Shown here one piece after another: positions 635 to 6,293 of a stretch of 64,000 bases of DNA. The notes beneath the pieces were generated by a model. The model was not told where the DNA came from. It worked only from the letters and a program-made list of their open reading frames with translations, and ran no database searches. This DNA is from Flavobacteriaceae bacterium (lineage in GTDB: Bacteria; Bacteroidota; Bacteroidia; Flavobacteriales; Flavobacteriaceae): the NCBI GenBank assembly GCA_024638165.1, contig JAHEKV010000001.1, positions 1-64,000 on the forward strand, read 5' to 3'. The translations under genes and the position numbers were made by a program. Position 1 is the first letter of the stretch. Each line of letters opens with the position of its first letter.

Positions 635-1339
635 GTGTTTCGATTTAAACAATTTTCGATAGACGATAGTAATGTTGCGATGAAAATCGGGACCGATGGT
701 GTTTTGATCGGTGCCTGGTCTTCTGCACCTGATCCTAAAAAAATCTTAGACGTTGGTTGTGGTACTGGGCTTATTGCGCTTCAATTAGCCCAGCGTTTCT
801 CTTCGAGTCAAATCAAGGCTGTAGATATTGATAAGCGAGCCTGTAACGCTGCTCAAATGAATTTTCGTAATTCTCCCTGGTCTGAGCGGCTAGAGGTAGT
901 TAAGGGTGATTTTTCGAATCCGTCTTCGATCGTTGACGCTGACTTTGATTTAATTGTTTCGAACCCGCCTTATTTTCAAGGAGCTGAGACCTTAGAAGAC
1001 GCTAGAACTCTTGCTAGAAATTCGAATCATTTACCCTTGCAATTACTCATTCAGTCTTCGCACCGTTTATTGAAGGCCGAGGGGTTATTTTCTTTAATTC
1101 TCCCTTCAGATCGATTCTCTGAGGCACAAAAGGTTGCGTTTGAGGCAGGTTTTAAGATTCGAAAGTATTGTCTAGTTAAGGGTCGCTCAGATTTACCAGT
1201 GAAGCGGGTGATGTTAGAACTTCAAAAAACCACCTCTGCGATTGTAGCTGAGCGTGAAGAATTAGTGATCGAGATTGAAAGACATCTTTATACTGAAGAG
1301 TATCGTCATCTTACAGCACCGTTTTATTTGAATTTTTAG
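635..1339 (+). CDS. trmN6: tRNA1(Val) (adenine(37)-N6)-methyltransferase, TrmN6/YfiC family
   Basis: This is a class I SAM-dependent methyltransferase expected to form m6A37 in tRNA1(Val). The SAM-binding motif ILDVGCGTG is at residues 37-45, and the N6-adenine catalytic motif NPPY is at 110-113 (DLIVSNPPYFQG). The N-terminal KQFSIDDSNVAMKIGTDG is the signature of the TrmN6/YfiC group. The start is a GTG at 635, two bases after the rimM stop. The gene overlaps the 3' end of the convergent dnaE2 gene by 4 bases, the two stop codons sharing TTAG. Substrate assignment is by family. Confidence 0.88.
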   Translation: MFRFKQFSIDDSNVAMKIGTDGVLIGAWSSAPDPKKILDVGCGTGLIALQLAQRFSSSQIKAVDIDKRACNAAQMNFRNSPWSERLEVVKGDFSNPSSIVDADFDLIVSNPPYFQGAETLEDARTLARNSNHLPLQLLIQSSHRLLKAEGLFSLILPSDRFSEAQKVAFEAGFKIRKYCLVKGRSDLPVKRVMLELQKTTSAIVAEREELVIEIERHLYTEEYRHLTAPFYLNF

Positions 1340-4290
1340 AAAGAGGTGTTAGTTACGTATTCGCAGCGCTCCTTTCTTTTTACTTCAATACTTCTGAACC
1401 CGAATTCGGTACAGACTAATCCTTCGATGAAGTAGATTCCTTTGGATAGTACGGGATATTTTTGAGCTACTTCAGGAAACGAAGTGGTGTCAAAAACGAC
1501 ACCATTGATATCTAAGTAGGTGGCGAATTGCATGATCTTTCCGCTTTTTGTTCTCGTGTTTTTCACCGTAACTAGATACCCTAGTATTCGCACTGTCTTT
1601 CGATCATAGTACTCTAGCTGGTTAGCGGTAACACCGTGAATCGGAGTTTTTAAAAGTTCAAAAGTCATTGAAAGGGGAAATCCTAAAAGCTCCCAAAGTT
1701 CATAAGTTCTCTCAACTGCTGATTCTTTGAGGTGTGTCAGGCTAACTCCCTTTTGTTCTGATGCGAAAAGTTTGGGTTGAAAGTTTCTTTGTCTACTATT
1801 TTTTATACCTAACGCTTGCCATAATAGCGAGTGCTTATTTTCATTGGTGAAGCTGAAGGCTCCGGCTCGTATTAGAAGTTCTATCTGTGAACTACCTATG
1901 GGTACTCGATCAATAAAGTCGAATAGACTTTTGAACTCCCCCTGAGTTCTGGCCTCTACTATTTTTATAATGCTTCGTTCCTCTAATTCTTTAAGGGCTA
2001 TAAAGCCTAGGTATAACTCGTTTTTGATGATCGTGTGTTGAATATGACTCTTGTTGATACAAGGGGTGTGTACTCTTGCGCCTAGTCTAACCGCTTCTTT
2101 GAGATAGAATTCTATTGCGTAGAATCCTCCTCCATTATTGATTACAGCCGTGAGATATTCTAGCGGATAGTAAGCCCTAAGAAATAGGCTTTGATAGCTC
2201 TCAACAGCATAAGAAGCAGAGTGCCCCTTGGCAAAGGCGTAGCCAGCGAAACTTTCGATTTGTCTCCATACTTCACGCACTTCCTCTTCGCGATACCCTT
2301 TTTGATTGCCATTTTCGAAGAATTGCGCCTTGATACGATTAAATTCAGCCTTTGATCTTGATTTACCGCTCATTCCTCTGCGTAGTACATCGGCCTCAGC
2401 AAGGCTCAACCCTCCGTAGTAGTGTGCGACTTTGATGACATCTTCCTGATACACCATAACTCCATAGGTTTCGGGCATAATATTTAGAAGTACGGGGTTG
2501 GCTCTTTGGTGTACTTTTTCAGGGTTTTGATGCCTAAGGATGTATTCATTCATCATTCCGCTTTGAGAAACCCCTGGTCTAATGATTGAGCTGGCAGCAA
2601 CAAGGCTCAGGTAGTTGTTTACTTTAAGTTTTTGCAAAAGCATTCGCATAGCGGGAGATTCAATGTAGAAGCAACCCATGCAATCTCCAAGGGCTAACAG
2701 TTTATTGATAGTAGTGTCATTTTTAAAGGTCTCGATTTGATGAATGTCTACCTGTTTATTTTGATTCTGTTCGATGAGTTTTAGGGCATCAGCAATTTTT
2801 GATAGACCTCGTTGAGACAGGATGTCGAATTTGTGAAGCCTAGCGTCTTCAGCGATGTGCATATCAAGGTGTATGGTTCGAAACCCTTTGGGCGGAAAAA
2901 AGGTAGTAGCATAACAGTGTATAGGCTTTTCGGTAATAAGCATTCCTCCGGCATGTATACTGAAGTGATTGGGTAAGCCTTCAATAAATTGAGAATAGTG
3001 CAATACTAGTCTCTGAAGCTCATCACTCTCCTTGTTGCGACCTAGGGGTTTTGTATGAGCAACTAGTGCATCAATTTCTTCCTTAGAGAGTCCAAATACT
3101 TTCCCGATTTCTCTGATTACTGCTCTTTTTTGAAAGGTTACATACGCGCCCAGCAAACACACATTCGGATACCTCTCAAATAAATATTGAATCATTTGGT
3201 TTCGCTCTCGCCAAGAAAAATCAATATCAAAATCGGGAGGGCTACTTCGGTACTTGTTAATGAAACGCTCAAAGTAGAGATTGAGCTCGATAGGATCGAC
3301 ATCAGTAATGCGTAGGAGATAAGCCACGAGGCTGTTGGCTCCACTACCTCTTCCTACATAGAAAAACCCTCTTTTTCTAGCTTCTCTAGTGAGATCCCAG
3401 TTAATTAAGAAGTAGGTGGTAAACGATTTCTCACAGATCAATTGCAATTCTTTAGCTAGCCGTGCCTGTAGCTCTTTAGGTTTTTCGTTAGGATACCGGT
3501 ACGCTATGCCTTCTTGACATAAACGCCTGAGTAGCGATTCATCTTCTTTCTGGTTTTTTCCAAATAATTGTTGGTTTTCTGAAGGGAGTCTGGGATCAAA
3601 GGAATACCCAAATGAGCATTGCTTACTGAGTTTTGTAGTTTGCTCTAATAAAAAGTCAAGGTCGTTAACCGCTTTTTTTAATTCGTTTATATCGAGCATC
3701 TGATGATCGATATCCCCTTGTTCTTCGACGGCTAGTTTACTGAGTAATGTATTATTATCAATGGCTCTTAGAAGACGATGGGTATTAAAGTCTCTTTTAG
3801 ATCGAAAGCTAACAGGGCTAAGAAATACAAGGCGTTCTTTATTCTCAATAAGTTTACTAAATCGCAAGCGGTTGAGATCTTTGATCGATACCCCTATGTA
3901 ATGATTGGGAAGTGTGATTTGTAGATTTTCAATTTGCACTTGAGTAAAGGGGTAGATAAAGCTTACCTCGTCGAGATCTGGAGCGTATTTTGGATATCCT
4001 TTTTTTGAGGCTTGAATCTCTGATACGAATTGATTGAGATTATAGAAGCCTTGTGCACTTCTCGCGATTCCTACATAACCCTTCGAGTTTCTGTCGCGGC
4101 AGTCAATACCTACTATAGATGATATGTTTTTTTTCTGGCAGTATTTAACAAAGGATAATACAGCAGCACTGTTGTTGATATCGGTGAGTGCGGCGAAAGA
4201 ATAACCTTTAGCAATAGCCAGGTCGACGAGCTCTTCTTCTGAGATCGTTCCGTATCGTAGGCTGTAATAACTGTGACATTGTAGATACAT
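1336..4290 (-). CDS. dnaE2: error-prone DNA polymerase III alpha-type subunit (DnaE2/ImuC-like)
   Basis: This 984-residue C-family polymerase is much shorter than a replicative DnaE, which fits the DnaE2/ImuC class used in translesion synthesis. The N-terminal PHP domain (about 1-200) is degenerate: the usual TDH.N site reads TDINN at 36-40. Catalytic aspartates are intact: PPDFDIDF at 351-358 (D355, D357) and HKFDIL with D489. The fingers motif IHAGGMLIT is at 445-453. A clamp-binding-like motif QPKLF is at 838-842, followed by an OB-fold region (about 895-980). The start overlaps the dinB stop by one base (TAATG), so the two are translationally coupled. That it acts in mutagenic lesion bypass is inferred from length and partner. 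Confidence 0.85.
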   Translation of the reverse strand: MYLQCHSYYSLRYGTISEEELVDLAIAKGYSFAALTDINNSAAVLSFVKYCQKKNISSIVGIDCRDRNSKGYVGIARSAQGFYNLNQFVSEIQASKKGYPKYAPDLDEVSFIYPFTQVQIENLQITLPNHYIGVSIKDLNRLRFSKLIENKERLVFLSPVSFRSKRDFNTHRLLRAIDNNTLLSKLAVEEQGDIDHQMLDINELKKAVNDLDFLLEQTTKLSKQCSFGYSFDPRLPSENQQLFGKNQKEDESLLRRLCQEGIAYRYPNEKPKELQARLAKELQLICEKSFTTYFLINWDLTREARKRGFFYVGRGSGANSLVAYLLRITDVDPIELNLYFERFINKYRSSPPDFDIDFSWRERNQMIQYLFERYPNVCLLGAYVTFQKRAVIREIGKVFGLSKEEIDALVAHTKPLGRNKESDELQRLVLHYSQFIEGLPNHFSIHAGGMLITEKPIHCYATTFFPPKGFRTIHLDMHIAEDARLHKFDILSQRGLSKIADALKLIEQNQNKQVDIHQIETFKNDTTINKLLALGDCMGCFYIESPAMRMLLQKLKVNNYLSLVAASSIIRPGVSQSGMMNEYILRHQNPEKVHQRANPVLLNIMPETYGVMVYQEDVIKVAHYYGGLSLAEADVLRRGMSGKSRSKAEFNRIKAQFFENGNQKGYREEEVREVWRQIESFAGYAFAKGHSASYAVESYQSLFLRAYYPLEYLTAVINNGGGFYAIEFYLKEAVRLGARVHTPCINKSHIQHTIIKNELYLGFIALKELEERSIIKIVEARTQGEFKSLFDFIDRVPIGSSQIELLIRAGAFSFTNENKHSLLWQALGIKNSRQRNFQPKLFASEQKGVSLTHLKESAVERTYELWELLGFPLSMTFELLKTPIHGVTANQLEYYDRKTVRILGYLVTVKNTRTKSGKIMQFATYLDINGVVFDTTSFPEVAQKYPVLSKGIYFIEGLVCTEFGFRSIEVKRKERCEYVTNTSF

Positions 4291-5504
4291 TATTGCTTGC
4301 GGTGAGCGAGTACGATAGGGGCGTTTCCGTTAAATGGGTTTTCAATTCGTCCGATAGTTTTAGCACCTAGACTTGAGGCTCTGATAATACTTCGATCACC
4401 AAAACGCAGTCTCATTCTGTCTATGGCTTGATAGAGCTTAATCGCTGATTCGTTATCGTCAAATAGGTTGATCTGATAGTTCCCTCCTGCTAAGTGACTG
4501 AATTTGACTCCTATTAGTCGAACTCTTAGTCGTCGATTGTACAAAGCGTTGAATAGCTCTAATACTCTAGGAATTAACAAGTGATCTGCGCTAGTGTAGG
4601 GTATTTTTAACTGCCTGCTCTGAGTGTCGAAGTCGGCATACCTTATTTTAACGCTTACGCAAGAAGTTAACTTTTGCCCTCTTCTGAGCTGATAGGCGAG
4701 GTTCTCGGTCATTGCGATAAGTAATTCTCTCAAGAGAGTCATATCTATAGTGTCGTAGTCAAAGGTTCTTTCAGTAGAAATAGATTTTCTTTCATTGTAA
4801 GTGATTACAGGGCTGTGATCTATTCCTTGAGCTCTTCGCCAAATGATTCCTCCTGTTTTGCCTAGCGTTTGCAAAAGAAGCTCTTCGGGAAGCTTTTGAA
4901 GGTCGCTGACGATTCTAATGCCTAATCGCTGTAGCGTTAGACCTATTTTGTCACCTACCATTGGGATTTTTCGAATAGGGAGTGGGGCCAAAAATTGCTT
5001 CTCGTATCCTTGATCGATTTTAATTTGATTGTTGGGTTTTGCCTCGCCGGTGGCTACCTTAGAAACGACTTTGTTTATGGATAGCCCAAGCGATATCGGT
5101 AACCCACTTTCTCTAATGATCTTGGTTCTTAGTTCTGAGGCGAACTTATAAGTACCGAAAAACTGATCCATTCCACTTAGGTCTGCGTAGAATTCATCGA
5201 TACTGGCTTTCTCGAAAGCAGGTACCTCTGATTTGATAATTTCAGTGATGAGGTCTGAATATTTGGTGTAGGTGCCTGAATTACCTCTTAGCACGATAGC
5301 TTCTGGACAGAGTCTGCGAGCTAATTTCATAGGCATTCCTGAGTGTACGCCAAAAGCCCGTGTTTCATAGCTACAAGCAGCTACTACTCCGCGGTCACTG
5401 ATGCCACCGACTAGAAGAGGTCTCTTCTTAAGCTCGCTGTTGATGAGTCGCTCTACAGAGACGAAAAAACTGTCTAGATCTAGATGTAAGATACTTCGAT
5501 TCAC
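4290..5504 (-). CDS. dinB: Y-family DNA polymerase IV (DinB)
   Basis: This 404-residue translesion polymerase has its catalytic site intact: LDLDSFFVSVE (D9, with F13/F14 at the steric-gate position) and SIDEFYADL (D103, E104). That separates it from ImuB, the inactive Y-family partner of the actinobacterial and proteobacterial mutasome. The thumb region contains KIPMVGDKIG, the little-finger domain follows, and a canonical beta-clamp-binding motif QINLF sits at 344-348. The start is a GTG at 5504, needed to include the first catalytic Asp. A -7 box ends only 4 bases upstream of it, and two palindromes lie beyond. The gene is coupled to dnaE2 by a TAATG overlap. Confidence 0.93.
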   Translation of the reverse strand: MNRSILHLDLDSFFVSVERLINSELKKRPLLVGGISDRGVVAACSYETRAFGVHSGMPMKLARRLCPEAIVLRGNSGTYTKYSDLITEIIKSEVPAFEKASIDEFYADLSGMDQFFGTYKFASELRTKIIRESGLPISLGLSINKVVSKVATGEAKPNNQIKIDQGYEKQFLAPLPIRKIPMVGDKIGLTLQRLGIRIVSDLQKLPEELLLQTLGKTGGIIWRRAQGIDHSPVITYNERKSISTERTFDYDTIDMTLLRELLIAMTENLAYQLRRGQKLTSCVSVKIRYADFDTQSRQLKIPYTSADHLLIPRVLELFNALYNRRLRVRLIGVKFSHLAGGNYQINLFDDNESAIKLYQAIDRMRLRFGDRSIIRASSLGAKTIGRIENPFNGNAPIVLAHRKQ

Positions 5505-5517: not shown

Positions 5518-5547
5518 GGAATTATTCCAATTATTAGGAAATATTCC
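5518..5547. promoter_or_regulatory. twin inverted repeats, candidate repressor operator for dinB-dnaE2
   Basis: Two 11-base palindromes occur in tandem: GGAATTATTCC (5518-5528, 5-base arms around one central base) and GGAAATATTCC (5537-5547, 4-base arms). Their centres are 19 bp apart, about two helical turns, so both would face the same side of the helix. They lie directly upstream of the dinB -7 box, where a repressor would block polymerase. A damage-responsive regulator would suit the genes, but none is encoded nearby. The repeats are seen in the sequence; the function is inferred. Confidence 0.5.
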
Positions 5548-5567: not shown

Positions 5568-5595
5568 TTGGATAAAAAAATTGCCCCTATATTTG
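5568..5595 (+). promoter_or_regulatory. promoter for the 5601-5687 RNA (TTG, 17 bp, TATATTTG)
   Basis: A TTG at 5568-5570 is followed after 17 bases by TATATTTG at 5588-5595, a full match to the Bacteroidota vegetative promoter. The expected start point is about 5601-5603. Transcription runs toward the nitroreductase gene, but a hairpin plus U tract lies in between. Confidence 0.6.
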
Positions 5596-5600
5596 TAGTG

Positions 5601-5687
5601 TTGTGTTGTGCAGGTAAAACTGCATCAAGTGTGGTATCCACAGTGATACTGACCTTTGAAAGGCTTTCCTTAGGGGAGGCTTTTTTT
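5601..5687 (+). ncRNA. candidate small structured RNA (about 87 nt) or attenuated leader
   Basis: Between the promoter at 5568-5595 and a U tract at 5681-5687 the sequence can form three hairpins. Hairpin 1 is 5606-5628 (UUGUGCAG paired to CUGCA-U-CAA around GUAAAA, one bulge). Hairpin 2 is 5630-5642 (UGUGG/CCACA with a three-base loop). Hairpin 3 is 5663-5680, the terminator stem. No reading frame with a convincing start fits inside. I do not recognise the family: it lacks the SRP RNA core and is too short for 6S RNA. It may be a free small RNA, or the regulated leader of the nitroreductase gene 45 bases downstream. Confidence 0.5.
5663..5687 (+). terminator. intrinsic terminator after the candidate small RNA
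   Basis: The arm GCTTTCC (5663-5669), a TTAG loop and the arm GGGAGGC (5674-5680) form a 7-bp stem with two G-U pairs, followed by seven T. A weaker competing hairpin, 5653-5663 (CCTT/AAGG), would use the base of this stem. Confidence 0.6.
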
Positions 5688-5700
5688 GTTTCTAGCCCAT

Positions 5701-5732: not shown

Positions 5733-6293
5733 ATGGAATTAAGTGAATTAATACGAACTCGAAGAAGTGTATACCCAGGATCTTATAACGACCGTCCTAT
5801 CGCTGACGAGCTTGTTGAAGAGATGCTTGAAGCGGCTCGATGGGCACCAACCCATAAAAAAACACAGCCTTGGCGATTTGTAGTTATTCGATCAGAGGCT
5901 CGCAACCGACTCGCTGATGCTATTGGTGAAGCCTATACTAAGACTGCTCAGAAGTTCAGTCAAATCACCCATGACAAGATGCGATCAAATGCGACAAAGT
6001 CTCAAGTAGCTATAGCCATTTGCATGAAGAGGGATCCGAAAGAATCGCTTCCTGAGTGGGAAGAAGTTGCTGCAGTAGCGATGGCTGTTCAGAACCTATG
6101 GCTTACTAGTCATGAAAAAGGAATTGGGGGTTACTGGAGTTCTCCAGGGGTTGTTAAGCATTTAGGAGATTTTCTTGAATTAGAAAAGGGAGAGCGTTGT
6201 TACGGACTGTTCTATATGGGCTATTACGATGAAAAGCCTGAAGACTCGGTGCGTTTATCGCTCGCTGAGGTCGTTCGCTACTTCGATCGCTAA
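5733..6293 (+). CDS. nitroreductase-family flavoprotein (FMN-dependent oxidoreductase)
   Basis: This 186-residue single-domain flavoenzyme is expected to use FMN and NAD(P)H to reduce nitro, quinone or other electron-poor substrates in the cytoplasm. The FMN-phosphate motif RTRRSVYPG is at residues 8-16, followed by EAARWAPTHKKTQPWRF, in which Pro-Trp-Arg packs by the flavin. The later GIGGYWSSPG segment is also typical. The length fits the compact YdjA-like subgroup. The natural substrate cannot be read from sequence. The ATG follows the candidate RNA terminator and the tandem repeat, so the gene may be controlled by read-through of that leader. ruvC follows 17 bases later. Confidence 0.85.
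   Translation: MELSELIRTRRSVYPGSYNDRPIADELVEEMLEAARWAPTHKKTQPWRFVVIRSEARNRLADAIGEAYTKTAQKFSQITHDKMRSNATKSQVAIAICMKRDPKESLPEWEEVAAVAMAVQNLWLTSHEKGIGGYWSSPGVVKHLGDFLELEKGERCYGLFYMGYYDEKPEDSVRLSLAEVVRYFDR

Follow-up and report, generated by a model that had tools for sequence, protein, structure and literature searches.

A putative small RNA gene upstream of a nitroreductase gene

The window considered here, the whole 64,000-nucleotide (nt) stretch at the start of contig JAHEKV010000001.1 from a bacterium of the family Flavobacteriaceae, contains between a Y-family polymerase gene and a nitroreductase gene a promoter and a 91-nt segment with three hairpins ending in T7, all within positions 5568 to 5690. 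Comparison of this segment with its homologues indicates that it is very probably a free-standing gene for a noncoding RNA of ~91 nt, which would act in trans as an antisense RNA dedicated to pnp, the gene for polynucleotide phosphorylase (PNPase). The features of the locus are as follows.

5568 to 5570, + strand: −33 element TTG, separated by a 17-nt spacer from the −7 box; TCG takes its place in L002 and L003, the two nearest relatives, both of which retain the −7 box
5588 to 5595, + strand: −7 box TATATTTG (TAnnTTTG, the sigma-A type of Bacteroidota)
5600 to 5690, + strand: predicted small RNA gene, ~91 nt, with predicted +1 at 5600; supported by homologues and by models R1 and R2 (see below)
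5600 to 5609, + strand: block 1, putative 5′-terminal seed GUUGUGUUGU; its complement, ACAACACAAC, lies in this genome's own pnp leader (G000:C38), ~72 nt ahead of the ATG
5608 to 5625, + strand: hairpin 1 (GUGCAG...CUGCAU), from the fold; its sequence varies by lineage and the hairpin re-forms
5626 to 5658, + strand: hairpin 2 (core 5631 to 5650), from the fold and from double changes in 15 relatives
5627 to 5636, + strand: block 2, AAGUGUGGUA, the exact complement of UACCACACUU in the same pnp leader; supported by a lineage-specific complementarity test
5651 to 5661, + strand: block 3, GACCUUUGAAA, predicted to pair with UUUCAUUGGUC of the pnp leader, with two U-U mismatches in the window genome
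5658 to 5687, + strand: intrinsic terminator hairpin and T tract, from the fold and covariation

A preliminary description of this DNA had reported a promoter, three hairpins, and a T tract, and inspection of the letters bears this out: the promoter reads TTG-17-TATATTTG, positions 5601 to 5690 fold into three hairpins at −29.4 kcal/mol (z of −2.4 against dinucleotide shuffles, 6 of 200 being equal or better), and the terminator-like stem at 5658 to 5685 is followed by T. The transcript start had been placed near 5601, one base too far, because the flavobacterial TAnnTTTG box sits at −12 to −5 in the account given in part of PMC9723704, and the predicted first RNA base is therefore 5600. A conserved block, GTTGTGTTG, also begins at 5600, four bases past the −7 box. 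No start-to-stop open reading frame (ORF) of ≥60 amino acids overlaps 5600 to 5690.

Distribution and transcription layouts of homologues

In a DNA search of 59 relatives, with segment matches opened and read, the segment was present in 10 of 10 genomes of the same genus (G001 to G010) and in four other genera (G011, G018, G021, and G028). Within the genus it lies between the Y-family polymerase and nitroreductase genes; elsewhere it lies behind an ndh-like gene or tRNA-Asp (gene names assigned by eye). A covariance model with the terminator stem only (R1) matched 239 of the 249 genomes of GTDB family f1 (Flavobacteriaceae) at E values up to 1, an upper bound because several weak matches were judged to be chance or plain terminators, and GTTGTGTTG stood at the predicted start in each of the top 30 R1 loci in these genomes. 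Weak matches of this kind were L015 (inside a gene), L016, L018, and L020 to L022, while at least five among 40 further stretches opened (L063, L068, L076, L084, and L086) were plain gene terminators. An order-level draw of 216 genomes yielded 39 matches at E values up to 0.005, 34 in family f1 and 5 in other families. The candidates from other families (seven places in five genomes, E of 0.001 to 0.004) resemble terminators of other genes and were set aside. So were candidates for a second copy in the window genome, where R1 at E values up to 10 returned ten places and the five of the nine others that were read (within L220 to L225) appeared by eye to be terminators or gene ends.

A pattern scan of named genomes returned at least 119 stretches, mostly from Flavobacteriaceae, including Flavobacterium, Zobellia, Maribacter, Kordia, Myroides, and Winogradskyella. 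Pattern matches were also seen in metagenome-assembled genomes labelled Parvularcula, Nitrotoga, Pseudomonadales, Saprospiraceae, Rhizobium, and Chryseobacterium (L121, L122, L133, L137, L148, and L159), possibly misbinned flavobacterial contigs.

Two transcription layouts were distinguished among 123 copies found with a strict pattern across 219 loci (118 loci matched, and some overlap). In 66 copies a TAnnTTT[GA] box ends 2 to 6 nt upstream, with no tRNA within 150 nt; 40 have no box and follow tRNA-Asp(GTC) on the same strand at a distance of 8 to 69 nt; and 17 have neither, and some of these lie at the end of a contig or follow a 3′ fragment of tRNA-Asp. None of the 123 has both a promoter box and tRNA-Asp. 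Counted by distinct homologous sequence, 58 of 113 carry the box. The conserved sequence begins at the same base in both forms, and the tRNA-Asp-linked form is therefore probably released by processing. The alternation of a private promoter with a tRNA-Asp trailer provides a natural experiment in the gain and loss of small RNA gene promoters.

The small RNA is duplicated in L092 (1026 and 7860), L098 (1081 and 5867), and L066 (1095 and 4693), and L069 has three copies. The second copy in L092 and L098 follows a 3′ fragment of tRNA-Asp, as if islands integrated at tRNA-Asp had brought the small RNA along, and the first copy in L092 adjoins a 124-amino-acid ORF that resembles, by eye, a truncated integrase N terminus.

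Conservation of sequence and structure

Homologues hardly vary in GUUGUGUUG, the 5′ end, which is predicted to form the first nine nucleotides of the transcript. The middle region varies in sequence and length by lineage and retains structure, with a z of <−1 in 113 of 113 distinct copies (mean of −4.3, mononucleotide shuffles); in certain lineages (L012, L013, and L025) it forms only one hairpin. The terminator stem shows pair-keeping double changes at 5 of 12 pairs (23 double-changed cells versus 4.3 in shuffled data, the alignment having been fitted to this stem), and the hairpin 2 core shows double changes at all six of its pairs among 15 promoter-type RNAs. The promoter, the terminator, conservation in unrelated neighborhoods (including behind tRNA-Asp), and the covarying hairpins together support a free-standing small RNA, one of the two options raised in the preliminary description. 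That description would have given up its reading if relatives showed neither conservation nor covariation, and both were found.

Complementarity to the pnp leader

Elsewhere in the window genome there are five copies of CAACACAAC, the complement of the 5′ end; of the four that were opened, three lie inside reading frames and one lies 72 nt before the start of pnp. The small RNA and pnp are on different contigs (G000:C50:5600 and G000:C38:5593). Among the 249 family genomes, 240 contained an identifiable pnp gene. Seventy pnp leaders, chosen for strong pnp matches or a known small RNA, were fetched, and in 65 of the 69 with a resolved start CAACACAAC is present within 200 nt of the ATG (dinucleotide-shuffled mean of 0.64 and maximum of 3 in 100 rounds). 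It is also present in 17 of 18 leaders from named genomes chosen for having the small RNA, the exception being Avrilella dinanensis, with an unresolved start. A further 21 family genomes, mostly chosen for a weak or absent small RNA match, gave 11 with the motif (including G091, and G170 in both pnp genes), nine without it (G215, G236, G213, G219, G217, G256, G248, G240, and G113), and one, G197, in which the leader is off the contig. The motif was found in none of eight pnp leaders (that of G036 included) from other families of the order. The leaders of G211, G257, and G249 contain two separate exact copies. When each leader was compared with the small RNA of its own genome, an exact complement of ≥9 nt anchored at the first base was present in 83 of 92 (shuffled mean of 0.93 and maximum of 3 in 30 rounds).

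Two further blocks of the small RNA match the leader. The linker before the terminator (block 3, typically ACCAAUGAAA) and the leader arm UUUCAUUGGU form 10 of 10 pairs, allowing G-U, in 58 of 92 genomes (shuffled mean of 0.6 and maximum of 2); at least nine pairs are possible in 87 of 92 (8.35 shuffled, maximum of 13) and at least eight in all 92 (47.75 shuffled). The arm lies on the correct, colinear side of the seed site in 90 of the 92. Block 2 is complementary to the CA-rich loop of the leader in a lineage-specific manner. In the window genome and the near-identical G004 and G010, AAGTGTGGTA matches TACCACACTT perfectly over 10 nt; the complement extends over 9 nt in G227, Patiriisocius (G474), and Dokdonia (G463), over 8 nt in G019, G072, G163, G199, and G476 among others, and over only 3 nt in G006. 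Across 72 nonredundant genomes, the mean longest complement of block 2 was 5.76 nt with the genome's own leader versus 4.86 nt (standard deviation of 0.10) with permuted leaders, the own-leader mean being reached in 0 of 1,000 permutations (z of 8.6, in a test that ignores the relatedness of the genomes), and identity and reverse controls showed no excess (z of 1.0 and 0.3, respectively).

The two RNAs have also changed together. In G217 and G215, two genomes with weak small RNA matches (E of 0.015 and 0.009), the small RNA and leader read GTTGTGTGTTG/CAACACACAAC and GTTGTGA/TCACAAC, respectively; further co-changes are ATCAGTGAAA/TTTTATTGAT in G006 and CCAATGGAA/TTCCATTGG in G163. The G006 case falls within the window's own genus and converts a C-G pair between small RNA and leader to U-A. 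Such lock-and-key co-evolution over three blocks would be unusual for an unlinked small RNA. The small RNA sequence and the start of the pnp mRNA have evolved together, which suggests that the RNA controls PNPase.

Predicted energetics are consistent with pairing. Cofolding the small RNA with the pnp leader gains −21.0 kcal/mol in the window genome, and the median gain in 91 genomes is −14.2 kcal/mol versus −4.8 kcal/mol with control leaders, which were drawn at random from nine genomes (eight from other families plus G240 from the same family, the G036 leader being taken with a misplaced start). Own leaders gain ≥5 kcal/mol in 91 of 91. As expected of a trans-encoded base-pairing RNA, its conserved seed complements an mRNA encoded elsewhere, compensatory changes are present, and both partners are predicted to be accessible (mean unpaired probability in 91 genomes of 0.87 for the first nine bases of the small RNA and 0.93 for the leader seed site), poorly so in the minimum-energy fold of the window genome's small RNA.

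In most of 30 pnp leaders (e.g., L257 to L286), the 3′ arm of the hairpin is followed by GUUUAA. CAACACAAC lies in frame at the 3′ end of smpB-like genes in L234 (G005) and L245 (G001), which may be a minor second target or a codon coincidence, and it also lies inside a questionable CRISPR repeat of F. indicum that appears in a portion of PMC5395568.

Evidence against a pnp-dedicated antisense RNA and alternative explanations

Several results weigh against the interpretation of the segment as a structured antisense RNA of pnp. In the 15-RNA test, sliding the structure by one column gave 33 double-changed cells versus 31 for the true structure (the slid structure has fewer paired cells, 70.3% versus 79.2%), and hairpin 1 aligned poorly (58.5% paired). 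The minimum-energy fold of the small RNA from 5600 in the window genome pairs most of the first nine bases internally; the centroid leaves them free. Model R2, run at a more sensitive setting on 32 family genomes chosen for a weak R1 match or to fill gaps, found no convincing small RNA in nine of them (best E of 0.03 to 0.35), and three of these nine, G120, G178, and G279, retain CAACACAAC in the pnp leader. The genomes of the pairing tests were selected by strong pnp or small RNA matches and are not a random sample. Nine of the 92 leaders have a complement of <9 nt to the 5′ end of their own small RNA, and the duplex energy of the 14-nt 5′ end is modest relative to shuffles, ranking within the best 1% in 36 of 91 genomes and within 5% in 63 of 91. 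Block 3 has two mismatches in the window genome, G004, G010, G232, and G217. A complement-only control for block 2 gave a smaller excess over permutation (z of 3.2, 0 of 1,000) because the CA-rich loops are nearly symmetric, and 45 of 91 control cofolds gained ≥5 kcal/mol. Finally, the pairing lies ~36 to 120 nt ahead of the ATG, and it is not obvious that translation would be affected from there.

The preliminary description had also considered a cis-acting riboswitch or attenuator of the nitroreductase gene (5733 to 6293), with a short hairpin at 5653 to 5663 competing with the terminator. That gene starts 45 nt past the T tract, and the synteny is kept in the genus members that were opened, but among the loci inspected nitroreductase is the neighbor only in the window's genus, homologues in other genera having the different neighbors noted above. 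The supposed antiterminator hairpin, CCTTTGAAAGG, is present in the window, but it is not conserved, most relatives outside the genus having CCAATGAAAGG or similar, and no ligand-type conserved core was seen. Because the synteny is limited and the antiterminator hairpin is lost, we reject this explanation as almost certainly wrong; by this evidence, the nitroreductase gene next door is not the target of the small RNA. Hardly more credible is the proposal that the element is mainly a terminator preceded by a 5′ motif, or else the trailer of tRNA-Asp, and that it matches the pnp leader because both bind the same protein, not because they pair. It is true that no structured part is more conserved than the terminator stem and that about a third of the copies (40 of 123) are tRNA-Asp trailers. 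The motifs of the small RNA and the leader, however, are reverse complements of each other and not copies; the block 2 excess lies in the pairing orientation and not in identity or reverse comparisons, and pairing-keeping double changes occur between the two RNAs.

A genuine small RNA could instead have other mRNAs as its real targets, with the pnp leader acting as a sponge that removes it or delivers it to PNPase. Repeated CAACACAAC sites in the leader loop of several genomes are what a sponge would have, and PNPase degrades small RNAs not bound by Hfq in other bacteria, as stated in a section of PMC4003864. Arguing against many other targets are the scarcity of CAACACAAC in the window genome, where the few sites opened fall in reading frames apart from that of the pnp leader, and the joint change of the small RNA 5′ end and the leader in G217 and G215, which would be hard to achieve under such constraint; blocks 2 and 3 also match the pnp leader. 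We consider the sponge explanation unlikely, though the strongest of the three, and favor an antisense RNA dedicated to pnp.

Proposed mechanism

For an antisense RNA dedicated to pnp, we propose that contact begins at the free 5′ end: GUUGUGUUG would bind CAACACAAC within the CA-rich loop, a single-stranded part of the pnp leader hairpin. The middle segment and then the linker before the terminator (GACC..UGAAA) would pair colinearly with what remains of the loop and with the hairpin's 5′ arm, UUUCAUUGGUC. The leader hairpin (CAUUGGUC...GACCAAU around the CA-rich loop) would in this way be invaded from its loop: block 3 resembles the leader's own 3′ arm (GACCAAU) and could displace it, opening the hairpin. 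The conservation, structure, complementarity, and co-evolution described above are observed in the sequences, and from them we infer production of the RNA, its pairing in the cell, and an effect on PNPase output. We favor a feedback circuit: PNPase would erode the small RNA, which in turn would set pnp translation or mRNA decay. Repression has about an even chance of being the result of pairing; stabilization or activation is somewhat less probable, and a leader serving mainly as a small RNA sponge is the least probable of these outcomes.

More tentatively, a single-target antisense RNA found throughout the Flavobacteriaceae may provide, in trans, an RNA strand whose counterpart in Escherichia coli is formed in cis within the pnp leader. 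Such a small RNA might act as a sensor of PNPase activity because PNPase itself destroys RNA: with little PNPase, the small RNA would accumulate and reset pnp. In the many lineages in which the small RNA would be cut from a tRNA-Asp trailer, PNPase synthesis would therefore be tied to tRNA output.

Outside Bacteroides, control by RNA in Bacteroidota is not known in much detail. Here, sequence alone yields a candidate small RNA family of common marine and soil bacteria together with its likely 5′ end, target, paired bases, and natural compensatory variants, and it makes posttranscriptional control of PNPase, a central RNA decay enzyme, directly testable in Flavobacterium johnsoniae or another laboratory strain.

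Comparison with known RNAs

The preliminary description had matched the segment to no known class, in agreement with Rfam 15 (6S-Flavo, Flavo-1, SRP, TPP, cobalamin, and others), in which no family reached its gathering cutoff in the window in a scan to an E of 10. Among 13 relatives, Rfam matches up to an E of 0.5 comprised only tRNA and two subthreshold matches to Phe_leader, which was rejected at 18.9 bits versus a cutoff of 55. No description of this small RNA, or of a small RNA at the flavobacterial pnp leader, was found in the open-access literature. Within Rfam 15 and open-access papers, the family therefore appears to be undescribed, though Rfp18 (below), which was compared by description only, may be a member.

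The small RNA SraG of E. coli and Yersinia is likewise tied to the level of PNPase; going by the title of a 2016 paper by Fontaine et al., it reportedly functions in PNPase homeostasis. It is encoded in the rpsO-pnp intergenic region, opposite pnp. In the part of PMC3832800 that concerns Y. pseudotuberculosis, SraG appeared to raise PNPase. Unlike SraG, the RNA described here is on a different contig from pnp and belongs to a different phylum (the sequences were compared only through Rfam as a whole). When E. coli pnp is autocontrolled by RNase III and PNPase, the leader itself furnishes the second strand. A double-stranded pnp leader would be the shared element, as outlined in an excerpt of PMC9032294, whereas the system in the window would obtain its second strand in trans from the small RNA.

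FopS and GibS of Bacteroides thetaiotaomicron are also small RNAs of Bacteroidota, and FopS has a similar layout, with a single-stranded 5′ seed stretch followed by a Rho-independent terminator and with sigma-ABfr promoters (PMC11697453, in part). It differs in being multicopy and in targeting the mRNAs of polysaccharide utilization loci with RbpB; its target and the tRNA-Asp linkage differ. Neither FopS nor GibS was among the matches up to an E of 10 in the Rfam scan of the window, the presence of a FopS model in that copy of Rfam being unchecked. Like the RNA of the window, Rfp18 of Flavobacterium psychrophilum is a strongly structured flavobacterial small RNA; it has a third stem-loop and is conserved across its genus. 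In contrast, it is reported to act on metalloprotease mRNAs, with pairing predicted in that third stem-loop (both points from sections of PMC9723704). Actino-pnp (RF01688) is a conserved RNA structure named for pnp, but it is cis regulatory and is assigned to Actinomycetales only in the relevant portion of PMC2864571, and no Rfam match to the pnp leader was found in nine flavobacterial pnp loci, six of which have an S15-Flavobacteria leader further upstream.

Upstream genes

On the minus strand upstream of the small RNA, the Y-family polymerase gene (4290 to 5504) precedes a second DnaE-like polymerase gene (1336 to 4290), both named by eye. Two palindromes 8 nt apart, GGAATTATTCC and GGAAATATTCC, at 5518 to 5547 ahead of the Y-family polymerase gene, are a candidate SOS operator; similar palindrome pairs recur in L004 and L007 to L011.
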